Origin: Gammaproteobacteria bacterium
GTDB taxonomy: Bacteria; Pseudomonadota; Gammaproteobacteria; Nevskiales; Nevskiaceae
Length of the DNA stretch: 64,000 bases
NCBI GenBank assembly: GCA_026398815.1
Contig: JAPLSA010000028.1
Location: 1 to 64,000 of the forward strand
Reading direction: 5' to 3'
Shown: positions 37,890-57,800 of the stretch, piece by piece
Numbering within the stretch: position 1 is the first letter of the stretch
Layout of the letters: every line of letters begins with the position of its first letter
Program-made: the position numbers and the translations under genes
Notes under the pieces: model-generated
What the model was told of the DNA's origin: nothing
The model's database searches: none
Seen by the model: the letters and a program-made list of their open reading frames with translations, nothing else

Positions 37890-40655
37890 TCAGCGCAGCG
37901 CCGCCAGCGTCGCCACCGCCTGCTGCGTGTGGGCGTGCCCGGGGCCCAGCGCCGCCGTCAACGTGCTGATGCTTTCCTGCAGCAGCGCGCGTGCGCGCTC
38001 GCGCTGCCCGGCGGCCGCATGCAGTTCGCCGGCCCGGGCCAGGTACCAGCCCAGATCCCACTCGCCGCCGCGATAGACGCGCCGCACCCGCGCCAGCGTG
38101 TCGTCGGCCAGGGCCAGCGCCGCCGGCAGGTCGCCGGCATCGGCCAGAAAGCGCGCGCCGTTGATCGCATGGGTCAGCGTGTCCGGGTGATCGGGCCCGG
38201 CAACACGGCGGTCGATAGCCAGCGTCTCCTGCTGCATCAGCGCCGCCTCGCGATGCCGGCCGAGCGCCGCCAGCGTGGTGGCAACATGGTTCAGGCTGCG
38301 CGCCAGCTTCGGCGTTTCGCTGCCCTTGGCGCGCTGGTAGGCGACCCCGGCCTCGAACAGCGGCAGCGCCTCCGCCGGACGGCCGAGCTTCAGCCAGGCA
38401 TAGGCGAGGTCGTTGGCGGCGGTAATGCTGTACTCGTTCTCCCGGCCGGTGGCGGCCAGCGTGCGTTCGCGCGCCTCGCTCAGCACCGGCACCGCTTCGT
38501 CGTAGCGGCCGGCCTTGTTCAGCACCGTGCCCAGCCGGCGCTGCCGCGACGCCGTCAGCAGGTGGCGATCGCCGAACGTCTCGCGGGTCAGCGCCAGCAC
38601 CTCGCGGGCCAGCGGGATCGCTTCGTCGAAACGCTGCGCGTCGGCGAGGTCGAAAGCGACATCGTTGGCCACCGAGATCGCCAGTTCGTGGGCCGGCCCG
38701 AGCCGCTGGCGCACTTCGGCCAGCAGCGCCTGTTCCGGCGCCAGGCAGGCTTCCGGCAGCCGCCGGCGCATGCAGTCGACGGCGATCAGCGACTGCCGGG
38801 CGTTGAGTTCCAGTTCCGGGCTCAGCGTGCCGGCGGCGCGCGCGGCGTCGAGCACCGCCACGGTGCCGGCCTGTACCGCCGGCAGGTCGTCCTCGACATC
38901 GAGCATTTCGATCAGGCTCATCTGCACAGCCAGCGTGTCCGGGTGGCCCGGCCCGAGCAGGCGCTTGCGGGTGGCGAACGCCGCTTCCAGCAGCGGCCGC
39001 GCCCGCGCGGTGTCGGACAGCCCGACCCAGGCCTGGCCGATCGCCTCCTCGATCGCCGCACGCGGCAGGCTGCCGGCCGCGAAGCGGCGGTCGAGATCAG
39101 CGGCGGCGGTGCCCAGCAGATCGCGGACCCGCAGCGCCGGATCGGCGGCCAGCAGCGGATTGCCGGCCGATAGCACGTCGCGGGTCAGGAAGTCGGTGAC
39201 GGCGCGGGCGTTGGCGGCTTCCTGCACGGCGCGGCGACTGGCGGCATCGGCCCGCCAGTACAGCCAGCTGGTCACCGCCAACGCCGCCACTGCCGTGATC
39301 GCCAGCGCCCGCAGCAGGCCGCGCCGGGCGCTGGCGCGGCTCAGGGCCTGCTGCAGCCGCAGGCTTTCGGCCTCGGCGGCCCGCGCCCGCTGCCGCTGCT
39401 CGCGCCGGGCATCAAGGCTGCGCAACCGCTCCGCCAGCGTCGCGGCATCGGCCAGCCGGCGGCCGGGATCGCCAGCGGCGGCGAGCAGGATGTCCTCACG
39501 CAGCAGTTCGTCGCCGATGTCGGCCTCCCAACCCGGGGCCAGCGGCCGGCGCAGATCACCGACGATGAACTGGTAGAGCATCACTCCGAGCGCATAGAGA
39601 TCGGCACGCACGGTCGGCGGCTGGCCGGTCAGCAGTTCCGGGGCGAGGTACAGCGGCGTGCCGCCGCTGGACGCATCGTCGCCGGCATCGCCCCGGGTCA
39701 GCCCGAGCCGGGTGATGCCGAGCGCGTCGAGTCGGGCGCTGTCGAACAGCCGGCCGCTGCCGAAATCGGTCAGGCGGATCTGCGGCCGGCCGTCGGGCCC
39801 GCGCCGGATCAGCACGTTGGCCGGCTTCAGGTCCTTGTGCAGCACGCCGACCGAATGGGCCGCCGCCAGCGCGTCGGCGATCTCGGCGATCAGCCGCAGG
39901 CGCTCGGCCATCGGCAGGCTGCCGATGCCGCCCTCGCGGGCCGCCCAGGCCGCGAGGTTGCCGTCCGGGCTGTACTCCAGCTCGATGAAATACGGCGCCT
40001 CGTCGAGGTTCCAGTCGCTGATCCGCGCCAGATCGTCGCGCGCGCCGAGGCTGTCGTTGAGCACCCGGAACAGCGTGATCTCGCGCTTCAGCGCCGTCAG
40101 CTGGACGCCGCTGCGGGCGAACTTGAACACCCGGCGCTCGTGGCTGAGCGACTGCTCGGCCAGCCAGACTTCGCCGATGCCGCCGCCGAGCAGCCGTTCG
40201 ACGCAGCGCCAGTTCGGCCGCAGCGGCACCGGTGCGCCGACAGCCAGGCCGAAGCCGGGACCGTCGTCGGCCGCCAGCGCCCCCGGCCGCTGCAGCTCGA
40301 CCTCGGCGACCAGCCGGTAGCCGTAGCCGTGCACGGTGCGGATCAGCGTCTGGCCGCTGTCGTTGAGCACCTGGCGCAGGCGCGCCACGCACTTGGTCAG
40401 GCTGGCCTCGGTAACCACGCGGCCAGGCCAGACGGCGTCCATGATCTCGTCCTTGGTGATCAGCTCGCCGGCGTGTTCGAGCAGCAGCCGCAGCAGCTCC
40501 ATTGGCCGCGATTCGAGCGCCATCGGCGCACCGTTGATCAGCAGCGTCCGGCTGGCCTCGTCGAAACGGATGCCGGCGAACTGCCAGAGGCGTCCGGAGC
40601 GCAGCCCGGACGATGGCCGTGACGAGGCCGGATCAGCGGGCGGCACGAATGCCAC
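37890..40655 (-). CDS. Membrane regulator: winged helix + Ser/Thr kinase + TM + TPR (regulator 1)
   Basis: 921 residues. Order: OmpR/CadC-type winged helix at about 23-119 (SLTKCVARLRQVLNDSG with the wing TLIRTVHGYGYRLVAEV); Ser/Thr kinase at about 150-415 (glycine loop LLGGGIGEVWLAE, Lys178, HKDLKPAN at 273-280 with Lys in place of the usual Arg, DFG at 297-299, APE at 338-340); one membrane segment at about 448-467 (LLRALAITAVAALAVTSWLYW); then TPR-like helices to the end (motifs such as GPGHPDTL). Predicted topology: DNA-binding and kinase parts in the cytosol, TPR part in the periplasm. GTG start at 40655. It is divergent from the hypothetical gene at 40820, with a repeat operator candidate between. 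Signal and substrates unknown. Confidence 0.9.
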   Translation of the reverse strand: MAFVPPADPASSRPSSGLRSGRLWQFAGIRFDEASRTLLINGAPMALESRPMELLRLLLEHAGELITKDEIMDAVWPGRVVTEASLTKCVARLRQVLNDSGQTLIRTVHGYGYRLVAEVELQRPGALAADDGPGFGLAVGAPVPLRPNWRCVERLLGGGIGEVWLAEQSLSHERRVFKFARSGVQLTALKREITLFRVLNDSLGARDDLARISDWNLDEAPYFIELEYSPDGNLAAWAAREGGIGSLPMAERLRLIAEIADALAAAHSVGVLHKDLKPANVLIRRGPDGRPQIRLTDFGSGRLFDSARLDALGITRLGLTRGDAGDDASSGGTPLYLAPELLTGQPPTVRADLYALGVMLYQFIVGDLRRPLAPGWEADIGDELLREDILLAAAGDPGRRLADAATLAERLRSLDARREQRQRARAAEAESLRLQQALSRASARRGLLRALAITAVAALAVTSWLYWRADAASRRAVQEAANARAVTDFLTRDVLSAGNPLLAADPALRVRDLLGTAAADLDRRFAAGSLPRAAIEEAIGQAWVGLSDTARARPLLEAAFATRKRLLGPGHPDTLAVQMSLIEMLDVEDDLPAVQAGTVAVLDAARAAGTLSPELELNARQSLIAVDCMRRRLPEACLAPEQALLAEVRQRLGPAHELAISVANDVAFDLADAQRFDEAIPLAREVLALTRETFGDRHLLTASRQRRLGTVLNKAGRYDEAVPVLSEARERTLAATGRENEYSITAANDLAYAWLKLGRPAEALPLFEAGVAYQRAKGSETPKLARSLNHVATTLAALGRHREAALMQQETLAIDRRVAGPDHPDTLTHAINGARFLADAGDLPAALALADDTLARVRRVYRGGEWDLGWYLARAGELHAAAGQRERARALLQESISTLTAALGPGHAHTQQAVATLAALR

Positions 40656-40731
40656 GGGCCACCTTCATCGTTTCGCCGATGCCTTTCAGATCAGGCACTT
40701 GCCGGCGCCGCGCAGCCGGGGTCGGAGCGCA

Positions 40732-40759
40732 TTCGGAAACTTTCGGAATTCCGTCAGGA
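40732..40759 (+). promoter_or_regulatory. Candidate operator: three 7-bp direct repeats at 10 and 11 bp spacing
   Basis: TTCGGAA (40732), TTCGGAA (40742) and GTCAGGA (40753). The gap to regulator 1 is 76 bp. Compared with the operator at 54681-54708, 21 of 28 positions match and the spacing is the same. Direct repeats at one helical turn fit binding by OmpR-type winged helices. See the findings for the comparison. Confidence 0.6.
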
Positions 40760-40819
40760 CTTCCCGCCGACCCGCTTCGATGATCGGCCGGACCTGAACT
40801 GCCCGGATGCGCTGCTGCC

Positions 40820-41374
40820 ATGACCTCCCCGCTCGCCCGTGATCCGGCGCCACTCGCGGCCGGCTGCCGCGCCGTCGATTCTGCTCGCTGCGCCGCCGAC
40901 GCGGAGCCGCCGGCCGGCGATCGCGACGCCCTGCGCCGCTGGCATGACGATCTGCGTGCCCGCCAGTACCGCGCCGACGCCGAGAACCGGCGGCTGCCGC
41001 GCATCACCCTGCTGCGCCAGGCGCTGTCCGGCTACGGCGACGACCAGGCACTGGCCGGTTACACGCGCCTGCTGGCCTTCGAAGTCGAGCACTGGCAGGC
41101 CCAGGACGGCGCCGAGCGGGCGCTGCCCGCCCCGGTCCGCGAAGCCTGCCGCAGCGCGCTGACGGCGATCATCGCCGCGCTGGCGATCGAGCAGCACGAC
41201 CTGCCGGCCTGCACGACGGCGGTTCGCGCACTCGCGCTGTACGGGCAGACACGGATGCCGGCCGGCGGGCCGCGCCGGCGCCCGACCCGCCTGCTGCGGC
41301 CGGGTTCGGCGAGCCGTCCGGAAGGGCTGCGCGTGCGCCGGCCGGAAGCCGACGGCGGCGACTGGCCGCGCGGA

Positions 41375-41395
<21 letters not shown>
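40820..41395 (+). CDS. Hypothetical protein between regulators 1 and 2
   Basis: 191 residues. No signal peptide or recognised domain. The middle is protein-like and helical (ITLLRQALSGYGDDQALAGYTRLLAFEVEHWQAQ; SALTAIIAALAIEQHDLPA), while both ends are Arg/Pro/Gly-rich and may be overlong. It lies 60 bp downstream of the candidate operator and runs tail-to-tail with regulator 2, overlapping it by 21 bp. Could be the partner gene of regulator 1. The gene is only moderately supported. Confidence 0.45.
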
Positions 41396-44188
<2,793 letters not shown>

Positions 44189-44273
44189 GGCGGAATCGGC
44201 AAGGTGGCAGGAATCGGTTCCAGGCGGGCGAATTGCGACCGGGTTCTCGGCCGGCACGGCCTGAAGCCGCGAT

Positions 44274-44302
44274 TTCAGGATTTTTTCAGATTTTCTTCAG
44301 GC
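44274..44302 (+). promoter_or_regulatory. Candidate operator: three TTCAG-type direct repeats at 11 bp spacing
   Basis: TTCAGGA (44274), TTCAGAT (44285), TTCAGGC (44296), each 11 bp apart in a T-rich stretch. The gap to the preferred regulator 2 start is 85 bp. The motif resembles the GTCAGGA unit of the other two operators. The remaining 246 bp to the subtilase ATG (44303-44548) hold no gene I can support; they should contain its promoter. Confidence 0.5.
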
Positions 44303-44548
44303 TCGAACAACAGCCCGTCGGCATCGTCCGATCCGCGCTTCCCGGCTGCACCCGTCGCCCGAAGGCCCGGCAGCCGGTGTGCGCCAGGCCACAGACGACC
44401 AGCAGATGCACGCCAACTGTGAACCGCAGCGCGGCGAGCGGGCATGGGACGCAATGACAATTCATTGACCTGGCCCAGGCGACCGGGACCGCATTCTAAA
44501 ACGCCGGCGACAGCCGGCCGGGCTGCAACCATGACAGGGAGAACAGAC

Positions 44549-47500
44549 ATGAGAGAGACATACACGCGGCGGCTGAGACAACTGACGCTGGCGCTGCTGG
44601 CCAGCGGCGCCAGCGCGGCCGCCCTCGCCGCCGGCGGCGTGCCGGCCAAGCCGGTCCCGGCCGGCTATCAGGTCGAGCCGGGCGATACCCGGGTGGTCGA
44701 ACTGCCGGCGGTGCTGCGCGACCTGCGCGGCACCAAGGCCGACGACAAGACCAATGCCCCCTACATCGGCCCGTACGCCGCAGCGGCCGGCCGTCCCGGC
44801 TTCCCGGTGTCCGCCGCCGAGCTGGCGCGCGACCCGAAGCTCAAGGTGTCCGACTTCCGGCTGCGCAGCACCGACCGCGCCGCCCTTGCCCGGCTGATCG
44901 AGAAGGCTGCGCGCGGGCCGGTTGACGCGATCGTGACGCTGAAGATGACGATGACGCCGGAAGGTCTGCTGTCCGACGCCGCCACCAATGCCCAGCGCAG
45001 CCAGATCGCCCGCCTGCAGCAGAACGTGATCAGCGCACTGGCCGGCCGCGAGCACCGCGTGCTGCACCGCTACCAGTACGTGCCGCAGCTGTCGCTGAAG
45101 CTGGACGCCAAGGCGCTGGAGCTGCTGTCGCTGCTGCCGGATGTCGCCGATATCCAGGAAGTCGAACTGTCGGCGCCGGATCTGGCCGACAGCGCGCCGC
45201 TGGTCGGCTCCACCGACCTGCTCGAGCGCGGCGTTGCCGGCGCCGGCTGGGTGGTGGCGGTGCTCGACACCGGCATCGACCTGAACCATCCGTTCCTGCG
45301 CGCCTATGTGGCCGAATCCTGCTTCTCGGGCAACGGCAATTGCCCGAACGGCACCTCGCGCCAGTCCGGCGCCGGCTCCGCTGCCGCCTGCACCTACGCA
45401 CCGGGCTGCGACCACGGCAGCCACGTGGCCGGCATCGCCACTGGTGCCTCCCAGGCCGGCTTCACCTCGCTGGAGGGCATTGCCCGCAGCGCCCGGGTAA
45501 TGCCGGTGCAGGTCTTCACCCGGTTCACCGGCAGCGACTGCACCAACCTCGGCAAGTCCAGCCCCTGCACGCTGTCGCGCACTGACGACCAGGTGGCAGC
45601 GCTGGAGTACGTCTACAGCCAGCGCTTCAACTACTCGATCGCCGCCGTCAACATGAGCCTCGGCGGTGGTCGCAATACCGGCTTCTGCGATTCCGATTCG
45701 CGCAAGCCGGCCATCGACAACCTGCGCGCGGCCGGCATCGCCACCGTGATCGCCTCCGGCAACAACGGCTACACCGATTCGGTCAGCACGCCGGGCTGCA
45801 TTTCCTCGGCCGTGGTGATCGGTGCCACCAACAAGGACGATACCGTTGCCAGCTACTCGAACAGCGTCGACTACCTCGACATGCTGGCGCCGGGCAGCGA
45901 CATCACTTCGTCGGTGCCGACCAGCGCCTTCGGCATCAAGAGCGGCACCTCGATGGCGACGCCGCATGTGGCCGCTGCCTTCGCGCTGCTGCAGTCGCAG
46001 CAGAACCGGTCGGTGTCCGAGACCCGCTCGCTGCTGCTGAACACCGGCAAGCCGATCACCGATACCCGCGCCGGTGCCGGCAACCGGGTCAAGCGGCGGA
46101 TCGACGTGCTGGCCGCCGCCAACCTGAACAATGTGACGCTGACCGATTTCGTGCCGCGCGAATACCGCCAGCCGCGGCCGATTCCGCACGGCTTCAACTA
46201 CAACGCCAACCGCAGCTACTGGTCGGCCGTCGCCGTGCGGCCGGACAACGCCGCGCTCGATGTCGACCTGCAGCTGTTCGATTCCGGTATCGGTAACGGG
46301 CAGCTGGCGAGTAGCGGCTTCGGTGCCGGGACCATCGACATCATCGCGCAGGACAACAACATCAGCCGCCGTCCGCAGGGCGTCGACTACCCGCAGGCCA
46401 GCATCTTCGGCAATGGCACCGGGCGCTACCGGATCGAAGCCTCGATTCCGGGCCGGGTGCTCAACAACCAGCTCGACGATGTGATGGACGGCACCCACGT
46501 GCTGCGCATCTACGATGCACAGGTCACCGCCGGTGTCCCGCAGTTCATCCGCGTGGTGCCGACCGGTGTCAACGATCTCGAACTGCTGGCCTTCACCTCG
46601 ACGCCGGATTCCTCGACCTGGGTGCGCAGCCGTTCGGCCGCCGCCGCCATTTCCAGCGCCGGCGGCTCCGGTGCCGCCGAATCGATCAGCTTCACGCCGC
46701 CCGCCACCGGCTTCGCCGGCATCGTGGTCACCAACAAGATCGGCGGCTTCGGCGGCTACACGGTGTACTCCGACAAGACCGCGCCGACCGGCTCGGTGAG
46801 CATCAACAACGGCGCCGCCTCGACCACCTCCACCAACGTGACGCTGACGCTGTCGGCCGCCGACGCGGAAACCGGCATCCTCGACATGCGCGTCGCCGCC
46901 GACGGCGTGGTCGATACCGAAAGCTGGGAGCCGTACGCGACGAGTAAGAGCGTGACCCTGTCCAGTGCCCCGGGCACCAAGACCGTGGCCGTGCAGTTCC
47001 GCAACCGCGCCGGCCAGGCGGCCGATCCGGTCACCGATACCATCGAGCTAACGGCACCGCTGCGTGCGTTCTCGATCAACGACGCCCGCCTGACCGAAGG
47101 CAATGCCGGGACCTCGCTGATGACCTTCACGGTGCGGCTGTCGGAAGCCGCCGCCAGCGAAGTGTCGGTCGGCTACGCCACCGCCAACGGCACGGCCACC
47201 GCCGGCTCGGACTACGTCGCCACCAGCGGCCGCCTGAGCTTCGCCGCCGGCCAGCTGACGCGGACGGTGTCGGTGACCATCAACGGCGACACCACGGTCG
47301 AGCCGGACGAAACGCTGTTCGTCAACCTCAGCAGCCCCACCGGCGCCACGATCGCCGATGCGCAGGGCATCGGCACCATCGTCAATGACGACGCCGCCGC
47401 CGGCGTGCCGGGCATCACCGTGCAGACCCGCAGCTACAACTTCGGCAATGTCCGGGTCGGCACCTCGAGCCCCGAGCGTTCGCTGGTCATCACCAGCTCC

Positions 47501-47713
47501 GGCACTGCACCGCTGGCGATCACCGGCATCCGCCTGACCGGCGACTACGCCGGCACCAGCAACTGCCCGCGCTCGCTGGCACCTGGCGCCACCTGCGCGC
47601 TGACCGGCACCTTCCGGCCGACCGCCACCGGCGCGCGACCGGGCTCGGTGACTATCACCAGCAATGCTCCGGACAGCCCGACCGTCATCAACCTGTCGGG
47701 CAACGGCACCTGA
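44549..47713 (+). CDS. Secreted subtilisin-family serine peptidase with Calx-beta and anchor domain
   Basis: 1054 residues. Signal peptide to about residue 28 (LTLALLASGASAAALAAG), propeptide-like region to about 210, then the S8 catalytic domain: Asp240 in VVAVLDTGID, His289 in CDHGSHVAGIA, oxyanion Asn405 in IASGNNG, Ser468 in SGTSMATPHVAAAFAL. Cysteines around 257-340 and 380-417 suggest disulphides. A Calx-beta domain lies at about 838-950 and a choice-of-anchor-D-like/ASPM-type domain at about 952-1054. ATG 44549 has GGGAGA upstream. Likely secreted or surface-held protease. Regulator 2 is encoded divergently. Confidence 0.93.
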   Translation: MRETYTRRLRQLTLALLASGASAAALAAGGVPAKPVPAGYQVEPGDTRVVELPAVLRDLRGTKADDKTNAPYIGPYAAAAGRPGFPVSAAELARDPKLKVSDFRLRSTDRAALARLIEKAARGPVDAIVTLKMTMTPEGLLSDAATNAQRSQIARLQQNVISALAGREHRVLHRYQYVPQLSLKLDAKALELLSLLPDVADIQEVELSAPDLADSAPLVGSTDLLERGVAGAGWVVAVLDTGIDLNHPFLRAYVAESCFSGNGNCPNGTSRQSGAGSAAACTYAPGCDHGSHVAGIATGASQAGFTSLEGIARSARVMPVQVFTRFTGSDCTNLGKSSPCTLSRTDDQVAALEYVYSQRFNYSIAAVNMSLGGGRNTGFCDSDSRKPAIDNLRAAGIATVIASGNNGYTDSVSTPGCISSAVVIGATNKDDTVASYSNSVDYLDMLAPGSDITSSVPTSAFGIKSGTSMATPHVAAAFALLQSQQNRSVSETRSLLLNTGKPITDTRAGAGNRVKRRIDVLAAANLNNVTLTDFVPREYRQPRPIPHGFNYNANRSYWSAVAVRPDNAALDVDLQLFDSGIGNGQLASSGFGAGTIDIIAQDNNISRRPQGVDYPQASIFGNGTGRYRIEASIPGRVLNNQLDDVMDGTHVLRIYDAQVTAGVPQFIRVVPTGVNDLELLAFTSTPDSSTWVRSRSAAAAISSAGGSGAAESISFTPPATGFAGIVVTNKIGGFGGYTVYSDKTAPTGSVSINNGAASTTSTNVTLTLSAADAETGILDMRVAADGVVDTESWEPYATSKSVTLSSAPGTKTVAVQFRNRAGQAADPVTDTIELTAPLRAFSINDARLTEGNAGTSLMTFTVRLSEAAASEVSVGYATANGTATAGSDYVATSGRLSFAAGQLTRTVSVTINGDTTVEPDETLFVNLSSPTGATIADAQGIGTIVNDDAAAGVPGITVQTRSYNFGNVRVGTSSPERSLVITSSGTAPLAITGIRLTGDYAGTSNCPRSLAPGATCALTGTFRPTATGARPGSVTITSNAPDSPTVINLSGNGT

Positions 47714-47757
47714 GCCGGGCCACCGTGGCGGCTGTGCCGCCACCTTGAGCGCAAGCC

Positions 47758-47792
47758 AAGGGCTGCCGGAGATTCATCCGGCAGCCCTTTTC
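47758..47792 (+). terminator. Intrinsic terminator after the subtilase gene
   Basis: Perfect 12-bp stem AAGGGCTGCCGG / CCGGCAGCCCTT with an 8-base loop, followed by TTC. It lies 44 bp past the stop. The rest of the gap to 48360 contains a decayed regulator fragment and no supported intact gene. Confidence 0.8.
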
Positions 47793-47868
47793 TTTGGCCG
47801 CTGCCGCAGCGGTGCGGAAGGCGTGGCCTCGACACAGCTGGCAACGCCGGCGTCGCCGGCTCCACGAC

Positions 47869-48091
47869 AGCGAGGCTTCGGTGGCGATCCGGCCCGGCCA
47901 CACCGCTTTCAGGAGCTCATCCGGGTGACCACTTCGTTGGCATTGCGCAGCAGTTCCACCGGCTTGCGCTCCAGCTGCACCAGCGCGCCCCTCACCCGCA
48001 GCTCCAGCGTCCGCCCGTTCGATACCGCGTTCGCAAATCGCCAGATCAGCGGCGTCTTGCCGGCATTCGTCACCACGGGGTTGATCGTCAC
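47869..48091 (-). pseudogene. Decayed N-terminal fragment of a winged-helix regulator
   Basis: Read on the minus strand it matches the first ~90 residues of regulator 2 closely (PLIWRFANAVSNGRTLEL; RGALVQLERKPVELL; then ANEVVTR), with an in-frame loss of four residues (the RQLL step), a one-base deletion near 47920 that shifts the frame before DELLKAVWPGRIATEASL, and then loss of homology; the kinase, membrane and TPR parts are absent. Nucleotide identity to 43955-44150 looks about 90 percent by eye. It sits head-to-head with the second subtilase gene, in the place the intact regulators hold elsewhere. Confidence 0.8.
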
Positions 48092-48360
48092 GGAGGCGGC
48101 GAGCGGAATGAGGGAGCAGCCGGCCGAGGAAGCTGGATACGGGTCGCCGGTGCGGGACCGCCGGAACTGCGTCCTGCGGATTTTCCAGGAACAAGCCCCT
48201 GGCCAATCGCTGGCAGCGAATTCCGCGAGCAAATGGTGACAAACGACACACCTTGCGATGACGTACAGATCACACCGTGGCGGCACCGTGCTACACCGGC
48301 GCAGCCTGCGAGCCGGATGCCGCAGCGCGGTTCGAACACCATTTCGGGAGGCAACACAGC

Positions 48361-51300
48361 ATGGATAACAACAGCCGACGTCAGCGGGGACTGAACCGTT
48401 GCGGATGGATGACCACCACGGCCGCAGCGGGCGCGCTGCTGCTGGCCGGCGCCGCGCAAGCCCAGGCGGCGCCGACGCTGCAGGCCAGCGCCGCCACGCA
48501 GATCGCCACGCTGCAGCAGATCAAGCAGGCGCGCACGGCGATCGAAGACAAGCTCGACACCGCGCTGTACATGGCGCTGCTCCGGCAGCGCGGCGACACA
48601 AGGCTGGCGCAGCTGCCCGCCTACCAGTATCTGGCGGCCGGCAAGGACGGCCGCTACACGGTCGACATCGGCATCGCCGGCCGCGACGACACCGACGCCG
48701 TGCTGCACAAGCTCGTCGAGCTGAAGGCGGTGCTGGTATCGGCGAAGGACGCCGCCTACCGCCACCAGACGATCCGCGCGCGCGTTCCGCTGGCCGACCT
48801 GATGGCGCTTGCCGCGCTCAAGCAGGTGACGCTGATTGCCGATGCGGTGCCGGCCACGACCCACGCGCTGGACCGCTCGGAAGGCATCGAGGCACATGCC
48901 GCCAATCTGGCGCGGGCCAGCTATGGCGCCAACGGCGCCGGCCAGAAGGTCTGCGTGCTGTCCGACGGCGTGACCTCGCTGGCCGCCGCGCAGGCCAGCG
49001 GCGACCTGCCGGCCGTCGACGTGCTGCCAGGCCAGTCCGGCACCGGCGATGAAGGCACGGCGATGCTGGAGATCATCCACGACCTGGCGCCCGGCGCCGC
49101 GCTCGGCTTCGCCACCGCCTTCATCAGCGAAGCCAGCTTCGCCGACAACATCCGTGCGCTGGCCGCCAGCGGCTGCACGGTGATCGTCGACGACATCCTC
49201 TATTTCGACGAATCGCCATTCCAGGACGGACCGGTGGCCGTGGCGGTCAACGACGTGACCGCTGCCGGCGTGCTGTATTTCTCCTCGGCCGGCAACGAGG
49301 GCAACAAGACCGACGGCACTTCCGGCACCTGGGAAGGCGATTTCAAGGCCAGCACTGCCGCGAACCCGACGCCGCTGGCCGGCGTAGGGCCGCTGCACGA
49401 CTTCGGCGACGGCGGCAATTCCCTGCGGGTGACCGCGGCCGCTTCGGCCGGCGCGATCCTGACCTGGGCCGAGCACTACACGCTGAGCGGCGGCACCGCC
49501 GCCACCGATTACGACCTCTACGTGCTCGACGGCGCGCTGAGCTCGGTCACCGGCTCGTCGATGAGCCGCCAGAACGGCAGCGGCGGCAACGACCGCGCCT
49601 ACGAGCGCGTGAGCAACGTGCCGAGCGGCAGCCGGCTGGTCGTCAACCGCTTCGCCGCCGGCCCGACCGCGCCGCCGATGTTCAACCTGATCGCTTTCCG
49701 GGGGAAGGTCGATCCGGCGCTCAGCACCGCCGGCACCACGCGCGGTCACAGCGCGGCCGCCGCCGCCTTCAGCTTGGCGGCGACGCCGGCGGCGACACCG
49801 TTCGACGGCAGCACGCCGCCGGGGCCGTTCCCGAACGCCTTCACCGCCGTCAACGCCACCGAAAGTTTCAGCTCCGACGGCCCGCGCCGGATCATCCTGC
49901 GGCCGAACGGCGCGGAGATCACGCCCGGCAATCGCAGCACCACCGGCGGCACGCTGCGCCAGAAGCCGGACCTGACCGCCGCCGACGGCGTCAGCACCTC
50001 GGCGCCCGGCTTCAGCACCTTCTACGGCACCTCGGCCGCCGCGCCGCATGCCGCCGCGATCGCCGCGCTGCTGAAATCCGGCGCGCCGACCCTGACGCCG
50101 GCCCAGGTCCGCACCGCGCTGACCTCGACGGCGATCGACATCGAAGCGCCGGGCGTCGATCGCTCGACCGGCTTCGGCATCGTCATGCCGGGGCCGGCGC
50201 TGGCCTCGGTCGGCGCCACGCCGCAGGCGGTGCTGGCGGTCGGCAACGCGGTCTACACGCAGGTGTCGGGCGATGGCGACAACGCCATCGAGCCGAACGA
50301 GACCTGGTCGGTGTCGATCCCGCTGCGCAACGTCGGCGCGGCCACCGCCGCGTCGGTCAGCGGCACGCTGAGCGCGCCGTCGACCACCGGACTGACCATC
50401 CTCGACAGCGTGTCGAGCTACCCGAACCTGGCACCGAACGCCAGCGCCGCCAACAGCACGGCGTTCCGCTTCCGGGTCGAGTCGAACTACCTCTGCGGTC
50501 GTCCGCTGGCGCTGCTGCTGACGGCGGCCTACACCGGCGCCAACAGCCCGCAGCCGTTCCCGCTGACCACCTCGACCGGCAACCTCGGCAGTCGCCAGAC
50601 CTTCCGCTACAGCGGCCCGGTGGTCGCCATTGCCGACGGCAGCAACACCGGCCCGGGCGCCAATGCCAGCCTGCCGGTCGCGGTGCCGACGCTGTCGGGC
50701 GTGATCGGTGACATCGACCTGAGCATTGACGGCAGCACCTGCAGCGCAGCGGCCGGCGCCACGACGGTGGGCATCGACCACACCTATCTCGGCGATCTGC
50801 AGGTACGGCTGCTGGGACCGGACGGCACCGTGGTGCCGGTGATCAGCAATGTCGGCGCCGGTGGCAACAACTTCTGCCAGACGCTGCTCGACGACGACAG
50901 CACCGGCGGCAGCATCCAGACCACCGGCAGCGCGCCGTACACCGGCAGCTTCAAGCCGAACGCCGCCTTGAGCGCCTTCGACGGCAAGAGCGCGGCCGGC
51001 ACCTGGACCTTGCAGGTGCAGGATTTCGCGGCCGCCGACACCGGCAGCGTGCGGGCGTTCTCGCTCGGCATCACGCCGTCGGTCTGCGATGCGGTGTCGC
51101 TGCCGAGCGCGAGCATCAACGATGTCAGCGTCATCGAAGGCAACAGCGGTACGAAAACCGTCACCTTCACCGTCACGCTGTCGTCGCCGGCGCCGTCCGG
51201 CAGCACCACCAGCGTGCGCATCGCGACAGCACCGGGCACCGCGACGGCCGGAAGCGACTATGTCAGCAGCTCCGGCACGTTGACCTTCGCCGCCGGGCAG

Positions 51301-51786
51301 ACTTCGCGCACGCGCAGCATCACGATCAACGGCGACACGATGCCGGAAGGGAACGAAACCTTCTTCGCCAACCTGTCGTCGCCGGTCGGCCTGACGATTG
51401 CAGACAGCCAGGGCGTGGCGACGATCATCGATGACGATGCGCCTGCGGCACCGAGCCTGTGGATCAACGACGTCTCGGTCCCCGAAGGCAACAGCGGCAC
51501 CCGCAACATCACCTTCACGGTGACCTTGTCGGCGGCGGCGAGCGGCACCGTGGGGGTCACTGCGACGACCGCCAACGGCACGGCCACCGCCGGCTCCGAC
51601 TACACCGGCGGCACGGTAAATTTGAGCTTCGCGCCGGGCCAGACCTCGCGCACCGCCAGCCTGCCGATCCGGGGCGACACGGCGGTCGAGCCGAACGAGA
51701 CCTTCTTCGTCAATCTGAGCAATCCCACCGGCGGCGCGACGATCGCCGACGGCCAGGGCATCGGCACCATCCTCAACGACGACTGA
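48361..51786 (+). CDS. Secreted sedolisin/subtilase-like peptidase with P domain and two Calx-beta domains
   Basis: 1141 residues. Signal region ends near 37 (GALLLAGAAQAQAA). The catalytic domain is S8/S53-like with Asp202 in CVLSDGVTS, Glu231 in DEGTAMLEIIHDLAPGA where subtilisins have the histidine, Asn312 in SSAGNEG and Ser558 in YGTSAAAPHAAAIAALL, i.e. a Glu-Asp-Ser arrangement. A proprotein-convertase P-like domain is at about 755-905 (DIDLSIDG; TYLGDLQVRLLGPDG; GTWTLQVQDFAAADTGSV) and Calx-beta domains are at about 911-1025 and 1030-1141. Ribosome site GGGAGG precedes ATG 48361. Secretion is likely; target unknown. Confidence 0.9.
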   Translation: MDNNSRRQRGLNRCGWMTTTAAAGALLLAGAAQAQAAPTLQASAATQIATLQQIKQARTAIEDKLDTALYMALLRQRGDTRLAQLPAYQYLAAGKDGRYTVDIGIAGRDDTDAVLHKLVELKAVLVSAKDAAYRHQTIRARVPLADLMALAALKQVTLIADAVPATTHALDRSEGIEAHAANLARASYGANGAGQKVCVLSDGVTSLAAAQASGDLPAVDVLPGQSGTGDEGTAMLEIIHDLAPGAALGFATAFISEASFADNIRALAASGCTVIVDDILYFDESPFQDGPVAVAVNDVTAAGVLYFSSAGNEGNKTDGTSGTWEGDFKASTAANPTPLAGVGPLHDFGDGGNSLRVTAAASAGAILTWAEHYTLSGGTAATDYDLYVLDGALSSVTGSSMSRQNGSGGNDRAYERVSNVPSGSRLVVNRFAAGPTAPPMFNLIAFRGKVDPALSTAGTTRGHSAAAAAFSLAATPAATPFDGSTPPGPFPNAFTAVNATESFSSDGPRRIILRPNGAEITPGNRSTTGGTLRQKPDLTAADGVSTSAPGFSTFYGTSAAAPHAAAIAALLKSGAPTLTPAQVRTALTSTAIDIEAPGVDRSTGFGIVMPGPALASVGATPQAVLAVGNAVYTQVSGDGDNAIEPNETWSVSIPLRNVGAATAASVSGTLSAPSTTGLTILDSVSSYPNLAPNASAANSTAFRFRVESNYLCGRPLALLLTAAYTGANSPQPFPLTTSTGNLGSRQTFRYSGPVVAIADGSNTGPGANASLPVAVPTLSGVIGDIDLSIDGSTCSAAAGATTVGIDHTYLGDLQVRLLGPDGTVVPVISNVGAGGNNFCQTLLDDDSTGGSIQTTGSAPYTGSFKPNAALSAFDGKSAAGTWTLQVQDFAAADTGSVRAFSLGITPSVCDAVSLPSASINDVSVIEGNSGTKTVTFTVTLSSPAPSGSTTSVRIATAPGTATAGSDYVSSSGTLTFAAGQTSRTRSITINGDTMPEGNETFFANLSSPVGLTIADSQGVATIIDDDAPAAPSLWINDVSVPEGNSGTRNITFTVTLSAAASGTVGVTATTANGTATAGSDYTGGTVNLSFAPGQTSRTASLPIRGDTAVEPNETFFVNLSNPTGGATIADGQGIGTILNDD

Positions 51787-51822
51787 TCACGCTCGCCAGC
51801 GCGGCTTCGTCAAAGCCGCGAT

Positions 51823-51862
51823 CGGAAAACGGAAAGGCGCTTCGGCGCCTTTCCGTTTTCCG
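51823..51862. terminator. Bidirectional intrinsic terminator
   Basis: Perfect 18-bp inverted repeat (CGGAAAACGGAAAGGCGC and its complement) around a TTCG loop, between the converging subtilase gene and regulator 3. Both sides end in A/T-rich stem bases, so it can stop both transcripts. Confidence 0.85.
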
Positions 51863-51869
51863 GCACCGG

Positions 51870-54611
51870 CTACAGGCCGGCGATCGCTTCGCGGGCCTTG
51901 CGGGTGTTGTCGTTGTCGGCGCCGAGCGTGCGGGTGAAGGTGGCCAGGCTTTCGTCGAGCAGCGTCCGGGCTTCGCTCTTGCGGCCGTGGGCCGCCAGCA
52001 GGCTACCAAGCTTCAGCGTGTACCAGCCGAGATCCCATTCGCCATCGCGGTACTGGCGACGGGCACCCGCGAGTGCGGCCCGGGCCAGCGCTTCGGCTTC
52101 GCTGCCGCGACCGGCGGCATCGGCGATCAGCGCCAGGTTCATGCCGTGCAGCAGGCTGTCCGGATGGTCCGGGCCAACGCTGTCGTGGTCGATCTTCAGC
52201 GCCTCGCGGGCCAGCGGCAGCGCTTCGGCCGCGCGGCCCAGACGCATCAGGGTCAGCGCGACATTGTTCAGGCTGCGGGCCAGCTTCGGCGTATCAGTCG
52301 GCACGCCGTGCTGACGCTGGAAATCGAGATAGCGCTGGAACAGCGGTAGCGCCTCGGCGTTGGCGCCGGACACGGAATAGGCATAAGCGAGGCCATTGGC
52401 GGCGGTAACGCTGTACTGGGTCTCGCGACCGCCACTGATCGCCAGCGCCGCTTCGCGCGCCGCCCGCTGCTCGGCGATCGCCTCGTCGACCCGACCGGCC
52501 ATGTTCAGCACGGTGCCGAGGCTGCGCCGGCGCGACACCGACAGGATGTGCCGTTCACCGTGCTGCCGAAGGGTCTTGCCGAGCACCGACCGCGCCAGCG
52601 CCAGCGCGTCGTCGAAGCGCTGCGCCTCGGCGAGATAGAAGGCCAGGTTGTCTTCGGTCTGCAGCGTCAGTTCGTGATCGTTCCCGAGCCGCCGGCGCAG
52701 CTCGGCGACCATCGCCAGTTCCGGCTCGAGGCAGGCGGCGGCCACGCCGCGCAGGCCGCAGTCGACGGCGATCAGCGCCTGCCGCGCGGTCAGCTCGGTG
52801 GCGGCGTCAAGCGGTCCATGGGCGAGCACCGCCTGTGCCAGCGCCCGTTCGCGCTGCAGCTCGTTGGCGTTCTCGTAGGCAGCGAGCAGGTGCAGCTGCG
52901 CCGCCCGGGTGTCAGCCGCCGTGTCGCCGAGCAGGCGACGGCGCTGCTCGACCGCCGATTCCAGCAACGGAATCGCCAGGGCCGGATCGTCGAAGCCGCT
53001 GTAGATCTGGCCGATGGCATCGGCAATCGCTGCCGCCGGCAGGGAATCGGCCGGGAAACTGCGCTTGAGTTCATCGGCCGCAGGGCCGATCAGCGCGCGC
53101 AGGCGGATATCGGGGTCGGCGCTGATCAGCGGATTGGCCGCCGACAGCAGGTTGCGGGTCAGGAAATCGGTGACCGCCTGGGCCGCCTGCGCCTGCGCTT
53201 CGGCGCGCCGGCTTTCGCCTTCAGCGCGGAAGTACAGCGCGGTGCTGGCCGCGAAGCCGAGCAGCAGGGTCGCCGCCAGCGCCCGCAGCAGGCCACGTCG
53301 CGCCTGGGCACGGGCCAGCCGCTGCTCGAGATCGCGGGCATGGGCCTGCACCGCCAGATCGCGCGCCTGTTCGAGCCGCCGCAGATCGAGGCTGCGCAGC
53401 CGCAGCGCCAGCTGCGCCGCTTCGCCAAGCCGCACAGCCGGATCGCCGGAGGCGGCCGCAGCAATGTCCTCGCGCAGCAGCTGGTCGGCGACATCGTTTT
53501 CCCAGCCCGGCGCCAGCGGCCGGCGGAAATCGCCGACCACCATCTGGTAGAGCATCACGCCAAGGGCATAGACATCGGCACGCGCCGACGGCGGCTGGCC
53601 GGCCAGCAGTTCCGGCGCCAGATACAGCGGTGTGCCGCTGGCGCTGCCATCGCCGATCCCGGTCTGGGTGAAACCCATGCGGGTGATGCCGAGCGCGTCG
53701 AGCTGGCCGGCATCGAACACCCGGCCACTGCCGAAATCGCTGAGCCGGACGTGCGGCAGGCCTTCGCCATCGAGCCGGATCAGCACGTTGCCGGGCTTCA
53801 GGTCCTTGTGCAGCACGCCGGCGCTGTGGATCGCCGCCAGCGCATCGGCGATCTCGGCGACCAGGCGCAGGCGGGTCGCCGGTGACAGCGCTGCCAGCCC
53901 GCCCTTCGCTTCGGCCCATTGCTGCAGGCTGCCTTCGGGGCTGTATTCGAGTTCGATGAAATGCGGCGCGGCATCAAGCTGCCAGTCGAGGATGCGGGCC
54001 AGGTCGTCGCGCGGCCCGAGTGTGTCGTTGAGCAGGCGGAACAGCGTGATCTCGCGTTTCAGCGCAGTGGTCGGCGCACCGTCGGCGGCGAACTTGAACA
54101 CCCGCGGCGCGTGGGTCTTGGCGTGCTCGCCGAGCCAGACCTCGCCGAAACCGCCGCCGCCGAGGCGCTGGCGGAACTGCCAGTGCGGCCGCAGCGGGAT
54201 CGCCTCGCCGGCTGCAAAGCCGAAGCCGTGTGCGGTCGCCAGCGCGGTCAGCTCGCCGCGGCCGCTCGCCTGGCTGCTGACATCGGCGGCCAGCCGGTAG
54301 CCATAGCCGTAGACGGTGCGGATCAGCAGCTGCTCGCTGTCGCCGATCGCCTGGCGCAGGCGGCCGACGCACTTGGTCAAGCTGGCCTCGGTGACGATCC
54401 GGCCCGGCCACAGGGCGTCGAGGATCTCGTCCTTGGTGACCACGTCGCCGGCATGGGCGAGCAGCAGGCGCAGCAGTTCCTGCGGCCGGTATTCGAGCGG
54501 CACGACGACGCCGTCGACCGTCAAGCTCAAGCTGGCCTCGTCGAACTGCACGCGCCCGAAGCGCCACAGGATCGGGCTGCCGGGCGCGGGCTTGTCGAGC
54601 GGCTGGGTCAT
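51870..54611 (-). CDS. Membrane regulator: winged helix + Ser/Thr kinase + TM + TPR (regulator 3)
   Basis: 913 residues. Winged helix at about 14-111 (SLTKCVGRLRQAIGDSEQ and IRTVYGYGYRLAADV), kinase at about 145-400 with glycine loop LGGGGFGEVWLGE, Lys173, HKDLKPGN at 268-275, DFG at 292-294 and APE at 332-334, membrane segment at about 442-461 (LLRALAATLLLGFAASTALYF), TPR-like helices to the end. Close paralogue of regulators 1 and 2, with regulator 1 the nearer. The ATG at 54611 is the natural start. Divergent from the GloVer-repeat gene at 54809, with a triplet operator candidate at 54681-54708. Inputs and outputs are unknown; binding of its own operator is inferred. Confidence 0.9.
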   Translation of the reverse strand: MTQPLDKPAPGSPILWRFGRVQFDEASLSLTVDGVVVPLEYRPQELLRLLLAHAGDVVTKDEILDALWPGRIVTEASLTKCVGRLRQAIGDSEQLLIRTVYGYGYRLAADVSSQASGRGELTALATAHGFGFAAGEAIPLRPHWQFRQRLGGGGFGEVWLGEHAKTHAPRVFKFAADGAPTTALKREITLFRLLNDTLGPRDDLARILDWQLDAAPHFIELEYSPEGSLQQWAEAKGGLAALSPATRLRLVAEIADALAAIHSAGVLHKDLKPGNVLIRLDGEGLPHVRLSDFGSGRVFDAGQLDALGITRMGFTQTGIGDGSASGTPLYLAPELLAGQPPSARADVYALGVMLYQMVVGDFRRPLAPGWENDVADQLLREDIAAAASGDPAVRLGEAAQLALRLRSLDLRRLEQARDLAVQAHARDLEQRLARAQARRGLLRALAATLLLGFAASTALYFRAEGESRRAEAQAQAAQAVTDFLTRNLLSAANPLISADPDIRLRALIGPAADELKRSFPADSLPAAAIADAIGQIYSGFDDPALAIPLLESAVEQRRRLLGDTAADTRAAQLHLLAAYENANELQRERALAQAVLAHGPLDAATELTARQALIAVDCGLRGVAAACLEPELAMVAELRRRLGNDHELTLQTEDNLAFYLAEAQRFDDALALARSVLGKTLRQHGERHILSVSRRRSLGTVLNMAGRVDEAIAEQRAAREAALAISGGRETQYSVTAANGLAYAYSVSGANAEALPLFQRYLDFQRQHGVPTDTPKLARSLNNVALTLMRLGRAAEALPLAREALKIDHDSVGPDHPDSLLHGMNLALIADAAGRGSEAEALARAALAGARRQYRDGEWDLGWYTLKLGSLLAAHGRKSEARTLLDESLATFTRTLGADNDNTRKAREAIAGL

Positions 54612-54680: not shown

Positions 54681-54708
54681 TTCTGAACAATTCCGAATTT
54701 GGTCAGGA
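54681..54708 (+). promoter_or_regulatory. Candidate operator: TTCNGAA, TTCNGAA, GTCAGGA triplet
   Basis: TTCTGAA (54681), TTCCGAA (54691), GTCAGGA (54702), spacing 10 and 11 bp, 69 bp from regulator 3 and 100 bp before the GloVer-repeat ATG. Same phase and order as at 40732-40759. Confidence 0.6.
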
Positions 54709-54808: not shown

Positions 54809-57800
54809 ATGAAACGGATGGCAGACAAGGGATACCGGGCAGCAGCGCCCCGGCCGGGACGGCAAGCCCGGCACTGGCTGGCGGCGGTGGTCGGCTGGCT
54901 GACGCTGGCCGCTGCGGCGATCACTGCGGTGCCGGCCCAGGCGGCTGCCCGTGTCGTCTACTCGCTCGGCCTGCATTCCAACGATGCCCGCCAGGGCGGA
55001 AGCTTCTATGGCTCGGGCGGTTCCTCGAACAGCAACGGCGCGCTGCGTGGGCCGGACGGCAGCGTCTATGTCGCGACCAGCGGCCTGCTCAACGACGGCA
55101 CGGTGCTCGCCCGCTATGGCACCGACGGCAGCTACACCGCGCTGCACTGGTTCAACGGCGGCAGGGCGCTTGACCTCGCCGGCACCACGATCAACGATCT
55201 TTCCGGGGCCCGCGGCACGCCGATCATCGCCAGCGACGGCGCGCTGTACGGCGTCGCCGCAGCGGGCGGTGCCAAGGGCAACGGCGGTGTCTATCGCCTG
55301 ATCCTGTCCGGTGCCGATGCCGGCGAGTACCGGATCATCCACAGCTTCGACTGCGAGCGCGGCTGCGCGCCGTCCGGCAGTCTGGTCGAGAACGCCAATG
55401 GCCTGTTCTACGGCACCACGCGCACCGGCCGCGGCAGCAACGATGTCGGCAGCGTCTACAGCCTGAGCAAGACCGGCGTTCATGTGCTGCTGCACGGCTT
55501 CGCCAGCAGCAATCCGGCTGGCGGCAACGATCCGCAGTCATCACTGACGCTCGGTGCCGATGGTGCCTACTACGGCAGCACCGTGTTCGGCGGCACCGGC
55601 GGCGGCGATGGCTGCAATGCCTGCGGCACGGTGTTCCGGATCACCACCGGCGGCAGCTTCACCACGCTGCACAGCATGACCGCCGGCGAAGGCAATCGGC
55701 CGATCGGCCGGCTCGCGCTAGGTGCCGACGGCAATCTCTACGGCACCAACGCCGCCGGCGGCGGCACCTCGACGTCCGGCAGCGTCTACAACGGCAGCGC
55801 GTTCCGGATCACCCCGGCCGGCACCTTCACCGTGCTGTTCCGCTTCATCGCCGACACCAGCGTCGACGCCGCCAATACCGGCATCTATCCGGCGTCGGGC
55901 CTGATCACCGGCCCGGACGGCAATTTCTACGGCACCACCGAAAGCGCGGTGCCGACCAATGCCGCGCCAGGCTGCGCCGGCAGCGGGGCACTCGGCCCGG
56001 CCGGCACCGTCTACCGGCTGACCCCGGCAGGCGTGCTGACCACGCTGTCCTGCTTCACCTACGACAGCGCCGGCCGCCACGCCGACGGCAGCGGCCCGGA
56101 TGCGGCCTTGACGCTCGGGGCCGACGGCGCGTTCTACGGCACGACGATCAGCGCCGGTCTGGTGCCGGCGGGCACCACGCCGTCCAATCCGTCGACGCCG
56201 TCGGTGGGCAGCGGCACCGTATTCCGCGTCACCAGCGGCGGCAGCATCACCCGCATCGCCACCTTCTCGGCCCCGCCGAGCGAAGGCCGCACGGCCAGCG
56301 GTGCCTTGCTGCAGGCGGCGGACGGCAGCTTCTACGGCGTCACCGCCGCGGGCACGCCGAAAGGCTACGGCGGCTCGATCTTCCGGGTGACGGCCAGCGG
56401 CACGCTGAGCACGCTGCATCAGTTCAGCCCCGGCGGCCTGCCCGAATCGGGCGTGATCGCCGGTCCGGACGGCGCGTTCTACGGCGCGGCGGAACTGGGC
56501 GGCAGCAATGGCTTGGGCTCGATATACCGGATCACCGCGGACGGTGATTTCTCGACCCTCTACAGCTTCACCGGCGGTGCCAACGGCCTGCGTCCGAAAG
56601 CCGCGCTGACCCTGGGCAGCGACGGTCTGTTCTACGGCACCACCAGCGAGGGCGGCAGCGGCACGGGCAGCGGCACGATCTTCCGGGTCTCCCCGACCGG
56701 CAGCTACACGCCATTGCACAGCTTCGATCTCGCCACCACCGGCAACCAGCCGCTGGGCAAGCTGCTGCAGGCCAGCGACGGCAACTTCTACGGCACCACC
56801 ACCAGTTTCGGCGCCAACAACGCCGGCACGCTGTACCGGCTGACCCCGGCCGGCGTGGTCACCGTGCTGCACGCTTTCCGGGGCGATGCGAGCGAGGGCG
56901 GCGGCCCGGCGGCCGGCGTGATCCAGGGTGCCGACGGCGCGCTGTACGGCACCACGGCCGGCGGCGGTTCCACCGCGGGCGGCACCGTGTACCGGGTGAC
57001 GCTGGATGGCGCGTTTTCGACGCTGTACACCTTCCGTAGCGGCGCGCCGGGCGAAAACCCGCGCAGCCCGCTGCTGCTCGGCCGCGACGGGAATTTCTAC
57101 GGCACCGCGTCGAACATCAGCTTCAATGACAGCCGTGGCGTGGTCTACCGGCTGACCCCGCAGGGCCAGTACGCAGTGGTCTACCAATCCGCCAGCCTTG
57201 CCAACGAGGACGGTCTGGAGGACGAGCCGATCCAGGCCGCCGACGGCGATCTCTATGTGCCGACCCGCAGCGATGGCAGCTTCAACTTCGGCAGCGTGAT
57301 CGCCATCAGCGGCCCGGCCGACCGGGTCGGCACGCTGAGCGCAGCGGCAGGCATCGGCAGCGTCACGCTGAACTGGCCGGTGGCGCCGCGCGCGGTCAGC
57401 TACAACGTCTACCGGGCGACGACGCCGGGCGGTCAGGGCAGTACGCCGATCGCCACCGGCATCACCGCCGCCGGCCTGACCGGCAGCTACTCGGCGACCG
57501 GCCTGACCGCCGGCACGGCGTATTACTTCACCATCACCGCGGTCAACGCGCTCGGCGAAACGCAGTTCTCCAACGAGGCGAGCGCCACGCCGACCGCCGC
57601 AGCGCCCACGGTGTCGATGACCGCCAACCCGGCCAGCCTGGTGCTCGGTGCTTCATCGAACCTGACCTGGTCGTCGACCAACGCCACCGCCTGCACCGCC
57701 AGCGGCAGCTGGAGCGGCTCCCGCGCCACCAGCGGCAGCGCCAGCGTCACCCCGGCCGCAGCAGGCACGGCGACCTACACGCTGAGCTGCACCGGAGCCG

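Follow-up and report, generated by a model that had tools for sequence, protein, structure and literature searches.

Three genes in the stretch of DNA analysed here (64,000 nucleotides of contig JAPLSA010000028.1, referred to as the window) raise the question of what a complete protein kinase domain does between a DNA-binding domain and a membrane helix. The genes, R1 (37890..40655), R2 (41375..44257) and R3 (51870..54611), all lie on the minus strand and encode, in this order, a winged helix-turn-helix (wHTH) domain, a kinase, a predicted membrane helix and a C-terminal part composed of tetratricopeptide repeats (TPR) in R1 and R3 and of helical repeats in R2. R1 is 921 and R3 is 913 residues long; R2 reaches 960 residues when counted from the first GTG, the gene caller favouring a start at 44188 (start codons and gene calls are those of our own caller). 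The original prediction for this locus had placed a whole kinase inside a CadC-like regulator; its coordinates, strand and residues proved correct on re-checking, and the position of the kinase between wHTH and membrane helix is borne out by Pfam, by alignment and by the structure models of R2 and R3.

All three proteins match Pfam Trans_reg_C, with E values of 3e-16 to 5e-15, and Pkinase, with E values of 3e-20 to 1e-28; TPR_10/TPR_12 match R1 and R3. By alignment, R1 and R3 carry HKD instead of HRD (H273-K274-D275 and H268-K269-D270, respectively) and R2 carries HRD together with D-L-G instead of DFG, just as first read, while the APE motif, Gly loop, β3 Lys, αC Glu and catalytic Asp, Lys and Asn are found in each of the three. 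AlphaFold (AF2) models of R3 and R2, with mean predicted local distance difference test (pLDDT) scores of 88.0 (built on 70 homologues) and 85.7 (38 homologues), both fold as wHTH, kinase, long helix and helical solenoid. In R3 the winged helix spans residues ~14-115, the kinase ~141-406, the long helix runs through the membrane segment (442-492) and the solenoid covers 504-912; in R2 the solenoid makes up the C-terminal half, though Pfam gives no TPR match there. The protein kinase fold was confirmed on the models (Foldseek, VIA), the kinase region scoring Z ~24-26 against solved kinases, and the R3 solenoid aligned with a TPR protein at Z 31.4 (root-mean-square deviation 3.3 over 406 residues). 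The orientation of the domains cannot be read from either model, since the predicted template modelling scores are 0.54 (R3) and 0.53 (R2).

Eight copies of the wHTH-kinase family are present in this genome, implying that the architecture of R1-R3 is not a chance arrangement. The family is a large one, with matches at E<=1e-60 in 32 of 61 relatives; the near relatives of this genome that have names are Nevskia. Around these matches 80 genes encoding both wHTH and kinase were recovered, and the 78 of at least 600 residues form the set used below; six stretches (L111, L122, L126, L147, L148 and L173) were dropped because they have no called gene carrying both domains. As homologues were chosen by similarity to R3, the set favours R3-like architecture. 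A scan of one genome per species added 26 wHTH-kinases among 80 loci kept, from Alpha-, Beta- and Gammaproteobacteria and Acidobacteriota, some of which may come from the same genomes as the 78. In a sample of Pseudomonadota, an HKD kinase was found in 6 of 398 genomes including this one, and the other five are all wHTH-headed. A plasmid-borne family was considered and rejected: a tblastn search of plasmids returned 671 records, none of them covering 80% of the query.

Judged by comparison of sequences, it is rather probable that these proteins are one-piece membrane receptors that drive dedicated local circuits, the kinase relaying the signal to the fused wHTH. The wHTH would sit on tandem 10-11-bp repeats in its own promoter, and the circuit would comprise the receptor gene together with, in most cases, its neighbour, which often encodes a large exported protein. 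A periplasmic partner would touch the TPR domain and alter kinase activity; candidates are this exported protein and, at some loci, the small product of a co-operonic gene. Phosphorylation might then occur within one chain (in cis) or between tandemly bound receptors (in trans), with the wHTH, a linker or the kinase as its target, and shift promoter occupancy or contact with RNA polymerase. The kinase would play the part that the separate kinase PknS plays for its extracytoplasmic function (ECF) sigma factor, but with the effector fused.

Promoter repeats and divergent neighbours

Phased repeats in the receptor promoters are the best evidence for a working wHTH and for local circuits. When orthologous promoters were aligned, short words repeating at 10-11 bp were seen, the repeated word differing from one paralogue group to the next. 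The operator candidates in the window are four related units at 10-11 bp for R1 (40721..40759, minus strand), three CTGAA units at 11-bp spacing, conserved across 5 orthologous promoters, for R2 (44270..44301, minus strand), and TTCYGAA units at 10 bp inside a block conserved in orthologous promoters for R3 (54681..54697, plus strand). The pattern CTGAA-N6-CTGAA-N6-CTGAA has a single site in the 4.3-Mb genome, upstream of R2, and TTCYGAA-N3-TTCYGAA has two, upstream of R1 and R3; reversed-pattern controls for both gave 0 sites genome-wide.

The same spacing stands out across the family. Triple 7-bp repeats with an exact period of 11 were present in 15 of 78 receptor upstream regions and in 21 of 807 controls (p 5e-8), a control set from which regions overlapping a receptor promoter had been removed; at periods 8-10 and 12-16 the counts were 1-4 of 78, with no enrichment. 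Allowing a spacing of 10 or 11 gave 24/78 against 43/807 (p 8e-11), or 13/37 when each orthologue group was weighted once (p 1e-7), and spacings of 8-9, 12-13 and 14-15 were not enriched among the 78. With the threshold unchanged, held-out taxa including Acidobacteriota showed spacing 10-11 in 9 of 26 promoters (7/21 minus possible duplicates) and the three other spacing pairs in 0/26 each. A core motif, TCYGAM, was weakly enriched family-wide before promoter-sharing controls were removed; at spacings 10 and 11 it was found in 4 of 78 promoters each, against 2 and 7 of 807. PhoB-type regulators use 11-bp phased direct repeats. Comparative evidence thus supports binding of the wHTH to direct repeats, in tandem at 10-11 bp, within the promoter region of its own gene; the circuit is therefore expected to be local and to take in the receptor gene and, as a rule, its neighbour.

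Comparison of gene neighbourhoods brings out large exported proteins on the other side of these promoters. The upstream neighbour is divergent in 41 of 78 receptors versus 226 of 799 controls, and divergent neighbours with a signal peptide and at least 400 residues number 19/41 versus 18/226 control pairs (p 2e-8), related copies being counted and hence not independent; with at least 800 residues they number 12/41 versus 5/226. A signal peptide alone is barely enriched (23/41 versus 92/226, p 0.05). These main counts extend the open reading frame (ORF) upstream and use a crude signal-peptide rule; a stricter rule, used in a first count, gave 17/41 versus 14/226. The neighbour types identified include subtilases with Calx-beta domains, GloVer repeats, an OmpA-like barrel with DUF5122 and cadherin-like domains, FG-GAP/Calx-beta proteins, gamma-glutamyltranspeptidase and AcrB-type pumps, and several neighbours have no family match. 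At one locus in another genome (L119, G002) three receptor genes follow one another in tandem, and 99-residue exported proteins with repeated LNG-type units are encoded ahead of two of these.

We consider it unlikely that the kinase targets mainly other proteins and that the wHTH only autoregulates its gene. The placing of the candidate operators in the receptor's own promoter region would fit such an arrangement, as would the action in trans of PknS-type kinases (PMC13147305). The intergenic region that holds the operators, however, is also where the divergent gene has its promoter; the product of this gene is unusually large and in many cases exported, and the receptor would activate the gene according to the local-circuit reading.

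Conservation of the kinase and its clade

Alignment of the 78 members argues for active kinases. The HxD His, β3 Lys and αC Glu are kept in all 78, as are the P and E of APE, and the catalytic Asp, Lys and Asn and the DFG Asp are kept in 76 each; activity is predicted because the catalytic Lys, Glu, Asp and DFG Asp are retained in at least 76 of 78. The middle residue of HxD is Lys in 70 members, Arg in 6 and another residue in 2, and the second position of DFG is Phe in 71 and Leu in 7. In the wider set of 26, the HxD residue is Lys in 18, Arg in 2, Leu in 2, Asn in 1 and Gln in 1, the motif being unmatched in 2. A degenerate-kinase reading of HKD was therefore discarded, this form being the norm among the 78 homologues, and the suggestion that HKD and DLG are signs of decay is not supported, as HKD is the family consensus and the catalytic residues persist.

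Several observations weigh against a kinase-relayed local circuit. The repeat threshold is failed by 54 of 78 promoters and was chosen after examples had been seen, and the upstream neighbour is co-directional in 37 of 78 copies. The wHTH Ser/Thr residues conserved in the family are T59 and T99, both at positions common throughout the OmpR family, so the domain yielded no phosphosite peculiar to these receptors. Finally, many members have a degenerate Gly loop (G154 in 31/78) and 2 of 78 lack catalytic residues, two features that also speak for a pseudokinase, that is, a fold that binds ATP or nothing and relays shape changes only, like ToxR/CadC without phosphorylation. Set against the residue conservation given above, a pseudokinase seems distinctly unlikely, and a kinase that relays the signal by phosphorylation is still preferred.

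A kinase tree of 141 rows separates 56 wHTH-kinases and 5 kinases without wHTH from 80 HRD kinases, with a Shimodaira-Hasegawa-like approximate likelihood ratio test (SH-aLRT) support of 100. The five kinases (L036, L042, L043, L044 and L045) share the HKD clade and have related N-terminal domains (36-56% identity), in which Pfam detects Guanylate_cyc in 2 of 5; a class III cyclase-homology domain thus takes the place of the wHTH, by Pfam in two and by homology in the other three. A predicted membrane helix follows the kinase in four of them, and the record of the fifth ends at that point. The cyclase-headed five are nested inside the wHTH clade in one tree; in another, a branch supported at 6 separates the wHTH rows from the remainder. 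L042 has WD40 repeats in place of TPR. Since most clade members carry a wHTH and five a cyclase-homology domain, the constant unit is the kinase and membrane helix, with C-terminal repeats, and the N-terminal output varies. The earlier description of a kinase inserted into CadC thus holds as regards the kinase lying between wHTH and helix, but the insertion itself is doubtful, since it is the kinase-helix-repeat core that stays constant.

Membrane topology and ectodomain exchange

The wHTH and kinase are predicted to be cytosolic, followed by one membrane helix and a periplasmic TPR part; this orientation follows from a DNA-binding N-terminus joined to a single helix. A best 19-residue window with a Kyte-Doolittle (KD) hydropathy of at least 1.6 was found in the membrane segment of 71 of 78 members, in the kinase of 11 and in the TPR region of 3, and in 75 of 78 this segment, which precedes the TPR part, exceeds both other regions in hydrophobicity. 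Lys and Arg are more frequent on the N-terminal side of the helix in 69 members, equal in 4 and fewer in 5 (reversed), a bias that points to an inside N-terminus.

Mean pairwise identity among the 78 is 0.48 for the wHTH, 0.51 for the kinase, 0.32 for the juxtamembrane region, helix and linker, and 0.19 for the TPR part. Of 58 pairs at least 75% identical in the wHTH-kinase half, 20 have TPR halves that are less than 40% identical or undetected; these exchange pairs belong to 4 of 15 orthologue groups, in which the TPR part has been exchanged between species and the cytosolic half conserved, the other 11 groups having none. The clearest comparison is that of the R2-type locus (L134, L137) in genomes G013 and G009, which match at 93.8% DNA identity over 4992 bp across the exported neighbour and the cytosolic half. 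The proteins diverge directly after the membrane helix, the TPR part gives no detectable DNA match, and the match returns at 93.0% for 1695 bp, beginning 46 bp past the stop codon in G013 and 21 bp past it in G009. With the break at the end of the helix, the periplasmic placement made in the original prediction gains support as a prediction. If the hydrophobic helix did not span the membrane, the protein would be a soluble or peripheral regulator with its TPR part in the cytosol. This would suit the 7 of 78 members whose best window falls under KD 1.6, but the charge bias, the hydropathy and the point of divergence between G013 and G009 make it very improbable.

Among R2-type receptors, the TPR type of G002 is that of G013 (94%), the type of G009 is that of this window (63%) and G014 is distant (35-37%). 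Each type being found in two genomes argues against chimeric assembly. Silent cassettes were considered as the source of the ectodomains: the G013 and G009 TPR types had at most one match per genome in nine genomes searched, which gives no support to intragenomic shuffling within these nine. The remaining exchange groups lose homology at points between codons 414 and 503; the DNA match resumes past the gene in L142/L143 and L155/L166, and for some pairs none was seen downstream in the examined stretch.

In the exchange groups, a gene of 111-273 codons often starts at most 90 bp after the receptor. For 12 such genes, chosen by hand at loci where an open frame lies right behind the receptor, similarity correlated with that of the TPR half at Spearman 0.61, versus 0.45 with the cytosolic half (66 non-independent pairs). 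L100.8 compared with L153.4 and L157.8 has 87-88% identity in the cytosolic half and 26-30% in the TPR half, with unmatched small genes; compared with L143.7 it has 67% and 33%, and the small genes match at E 2e-8. The G+C content at third codon positions (GC3) of the TPR half relative to the kinase half is -0.119 in exchange groups (n=18) versus -0.048 in others (n=60). The tracking of the small genes and the low GC3 of the TPR half therefore suggest that outer cassettes were imported, some with a partner gene.

Small variable genes lie just 3' of the receptor at L142, L143, L153, L155, L157, L159 and L166, several with paired-cysteine motifs. They could encode partner or precursor peptides; a Pfam/NCBIfam scan of small co-operonic proteins matched 0 of 7. 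Radical SAM genes directly follow the receptor at L099:11560-12501 and L175:9796-10770, their nearest relatives being YydG peptide epimerases, below the family cut-off, and a tyrosinase-domain gene follows the small gene after L157.8. We tentatively propose, as a possibility rather than an expectation, polymorphic recognition receptors in which a constant module of wHTH, HKD kinase and helix is joined to an exchangeable periplasmic TPR part, in some loci inherited with a small partner gene and sometimes also with a gene for a radical SAM peptide-epimerase-like protein or a tyrosinase. Cassette exchange would then re-tune the recognition of partner, kin or competitor and leave the genetic output the same.

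Known systems and further features of the window

Like ToxR and CadC, these receptors have an N-terminal OmpR-type wHTH (Trans_reg_C in R1-R3), one predicted membrane helix, a predicted outward C-terminal sensor and putative local targets; unlike them, they have a kinase of ~270 residues separating the wHTH from the membrane, and the sensor is a TPR solenoid. The CadC model PRK10153 (NCBIfam) gives 35-49 bits, against a cut-off of 400, and covers the wHTH only, at most positions 23-111 of 516. The FxSxx-COOH system TPR protein model NF040586 (NCBIfam) gave 112 and 103 bits against a cut-off of 300, in the TPR region only. The Hanks-type motifs (VAIK Lys, αC Glu, HxD, Asn, DFG and APE) all occur in the family, in line with the predicted activity. 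The cyclase-headed HKD kinases resemble the receptors in belonging to the same kinase clade (SH-aLRT 100) and differ in carrying a cyclase-homology N-terminus instead of the wHTH. In the agr and ComD specificity groups, which are histidine kinases with peptide pheromones, a conserved kinase half is joined to an exchangeable sensor half; the exchangeable sensor is similar to that of the receptors described here, but the proteins are not homologous.

Among systems tested by experiment, PknS of Xanthomonas citri comes closest: this kinase, which has one membrane helix and periplasmic TPRs, phosphorylates five residues of the sigma factor EcfK (PMC13147305; see also PMC8103513). PknS and other ECF43-linked receptor kinases are like the receptors in combining a Hanks kinase, one membrane helix and periplasmic TPRs (PMC13147305); the effector of PknS, unlike the wHTH, is a separate sigma factor. 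The sampled ECF-linked kinases fall into an HRD clade distinct from the HKD one (SH-aLRT 100), in a tree whose rows do not include X. citri PknS itself. The same genome also encodes the kinase-helix-TPR layout without wHTH next to ECF sigma genes, in kinases of another clade; three such plain genes (L104, L105 and L106) each adjoin an ECF sigma gene. An ECF sigma gene lies within 1.5 kb at 20 of 30 plain kinase-TPR loci, a set chosen by similarity to a kinase with an ECF neighbour and covering the loci of 30 of the matches listed, versus 0 of 80 wHTH-kinase loci. This fits a fused effector in place of a next-door one, in two kinase groups that are not close relatives.

In the open-access literature no description of a wHTH-kinase-helix-TPR protein was found, including searches for Trans_reg_C with Pkinase with or without TPR, subscription papers being mostly outside this scope; the architecture may be noted elsewhere, because any Pfam scan reveals it. 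If the proposed reading is true, signal reception, Ser/Thr phosphorylation and promoter binding would be united in one polypeptide, and phosphorylation control of a transcription factor could be tested without searching for a partner; for each receptor an operator is predicted, and it is clear which target gene to look at first. The clade would offer a natural series in which one kinase is paired with various outputs (a wHTH or a cyclase-like domain) and with sensors that can be exchanged. Such a series would help to find out how a Hanks kinase signals to a fused domain and could serve in the construction of sensors.

In the window itself, R1 is divergent from a 191-codon ORF without family match that overlaps the end of R2 (40820..41395, plus strand). 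R3 is divergent from a GloVer-repeat protein with 13 repeat stretches (54887..58693, plus strand), whose signal peptide probably starts upstream of the called start. The divergent neighbour of R2 is an exported subtilase with Calx-beta and choice-of-anchor D domains (44549..47713, plus strand). Beyond it lies the remnant of a fourth, R2-like regulator (47865..48091, minus strand), a frameshifted wHTH only, with 86.5% DNA identity to the R2 wHTH over 200 aligned positions and no obvious repeat in its promoter by eye (not scored). Its own divergent neighbour is a second exported subtilase, with P-domain and Calx-beta domains (48409..51786, plus strand), which has apparently lost its receptor.
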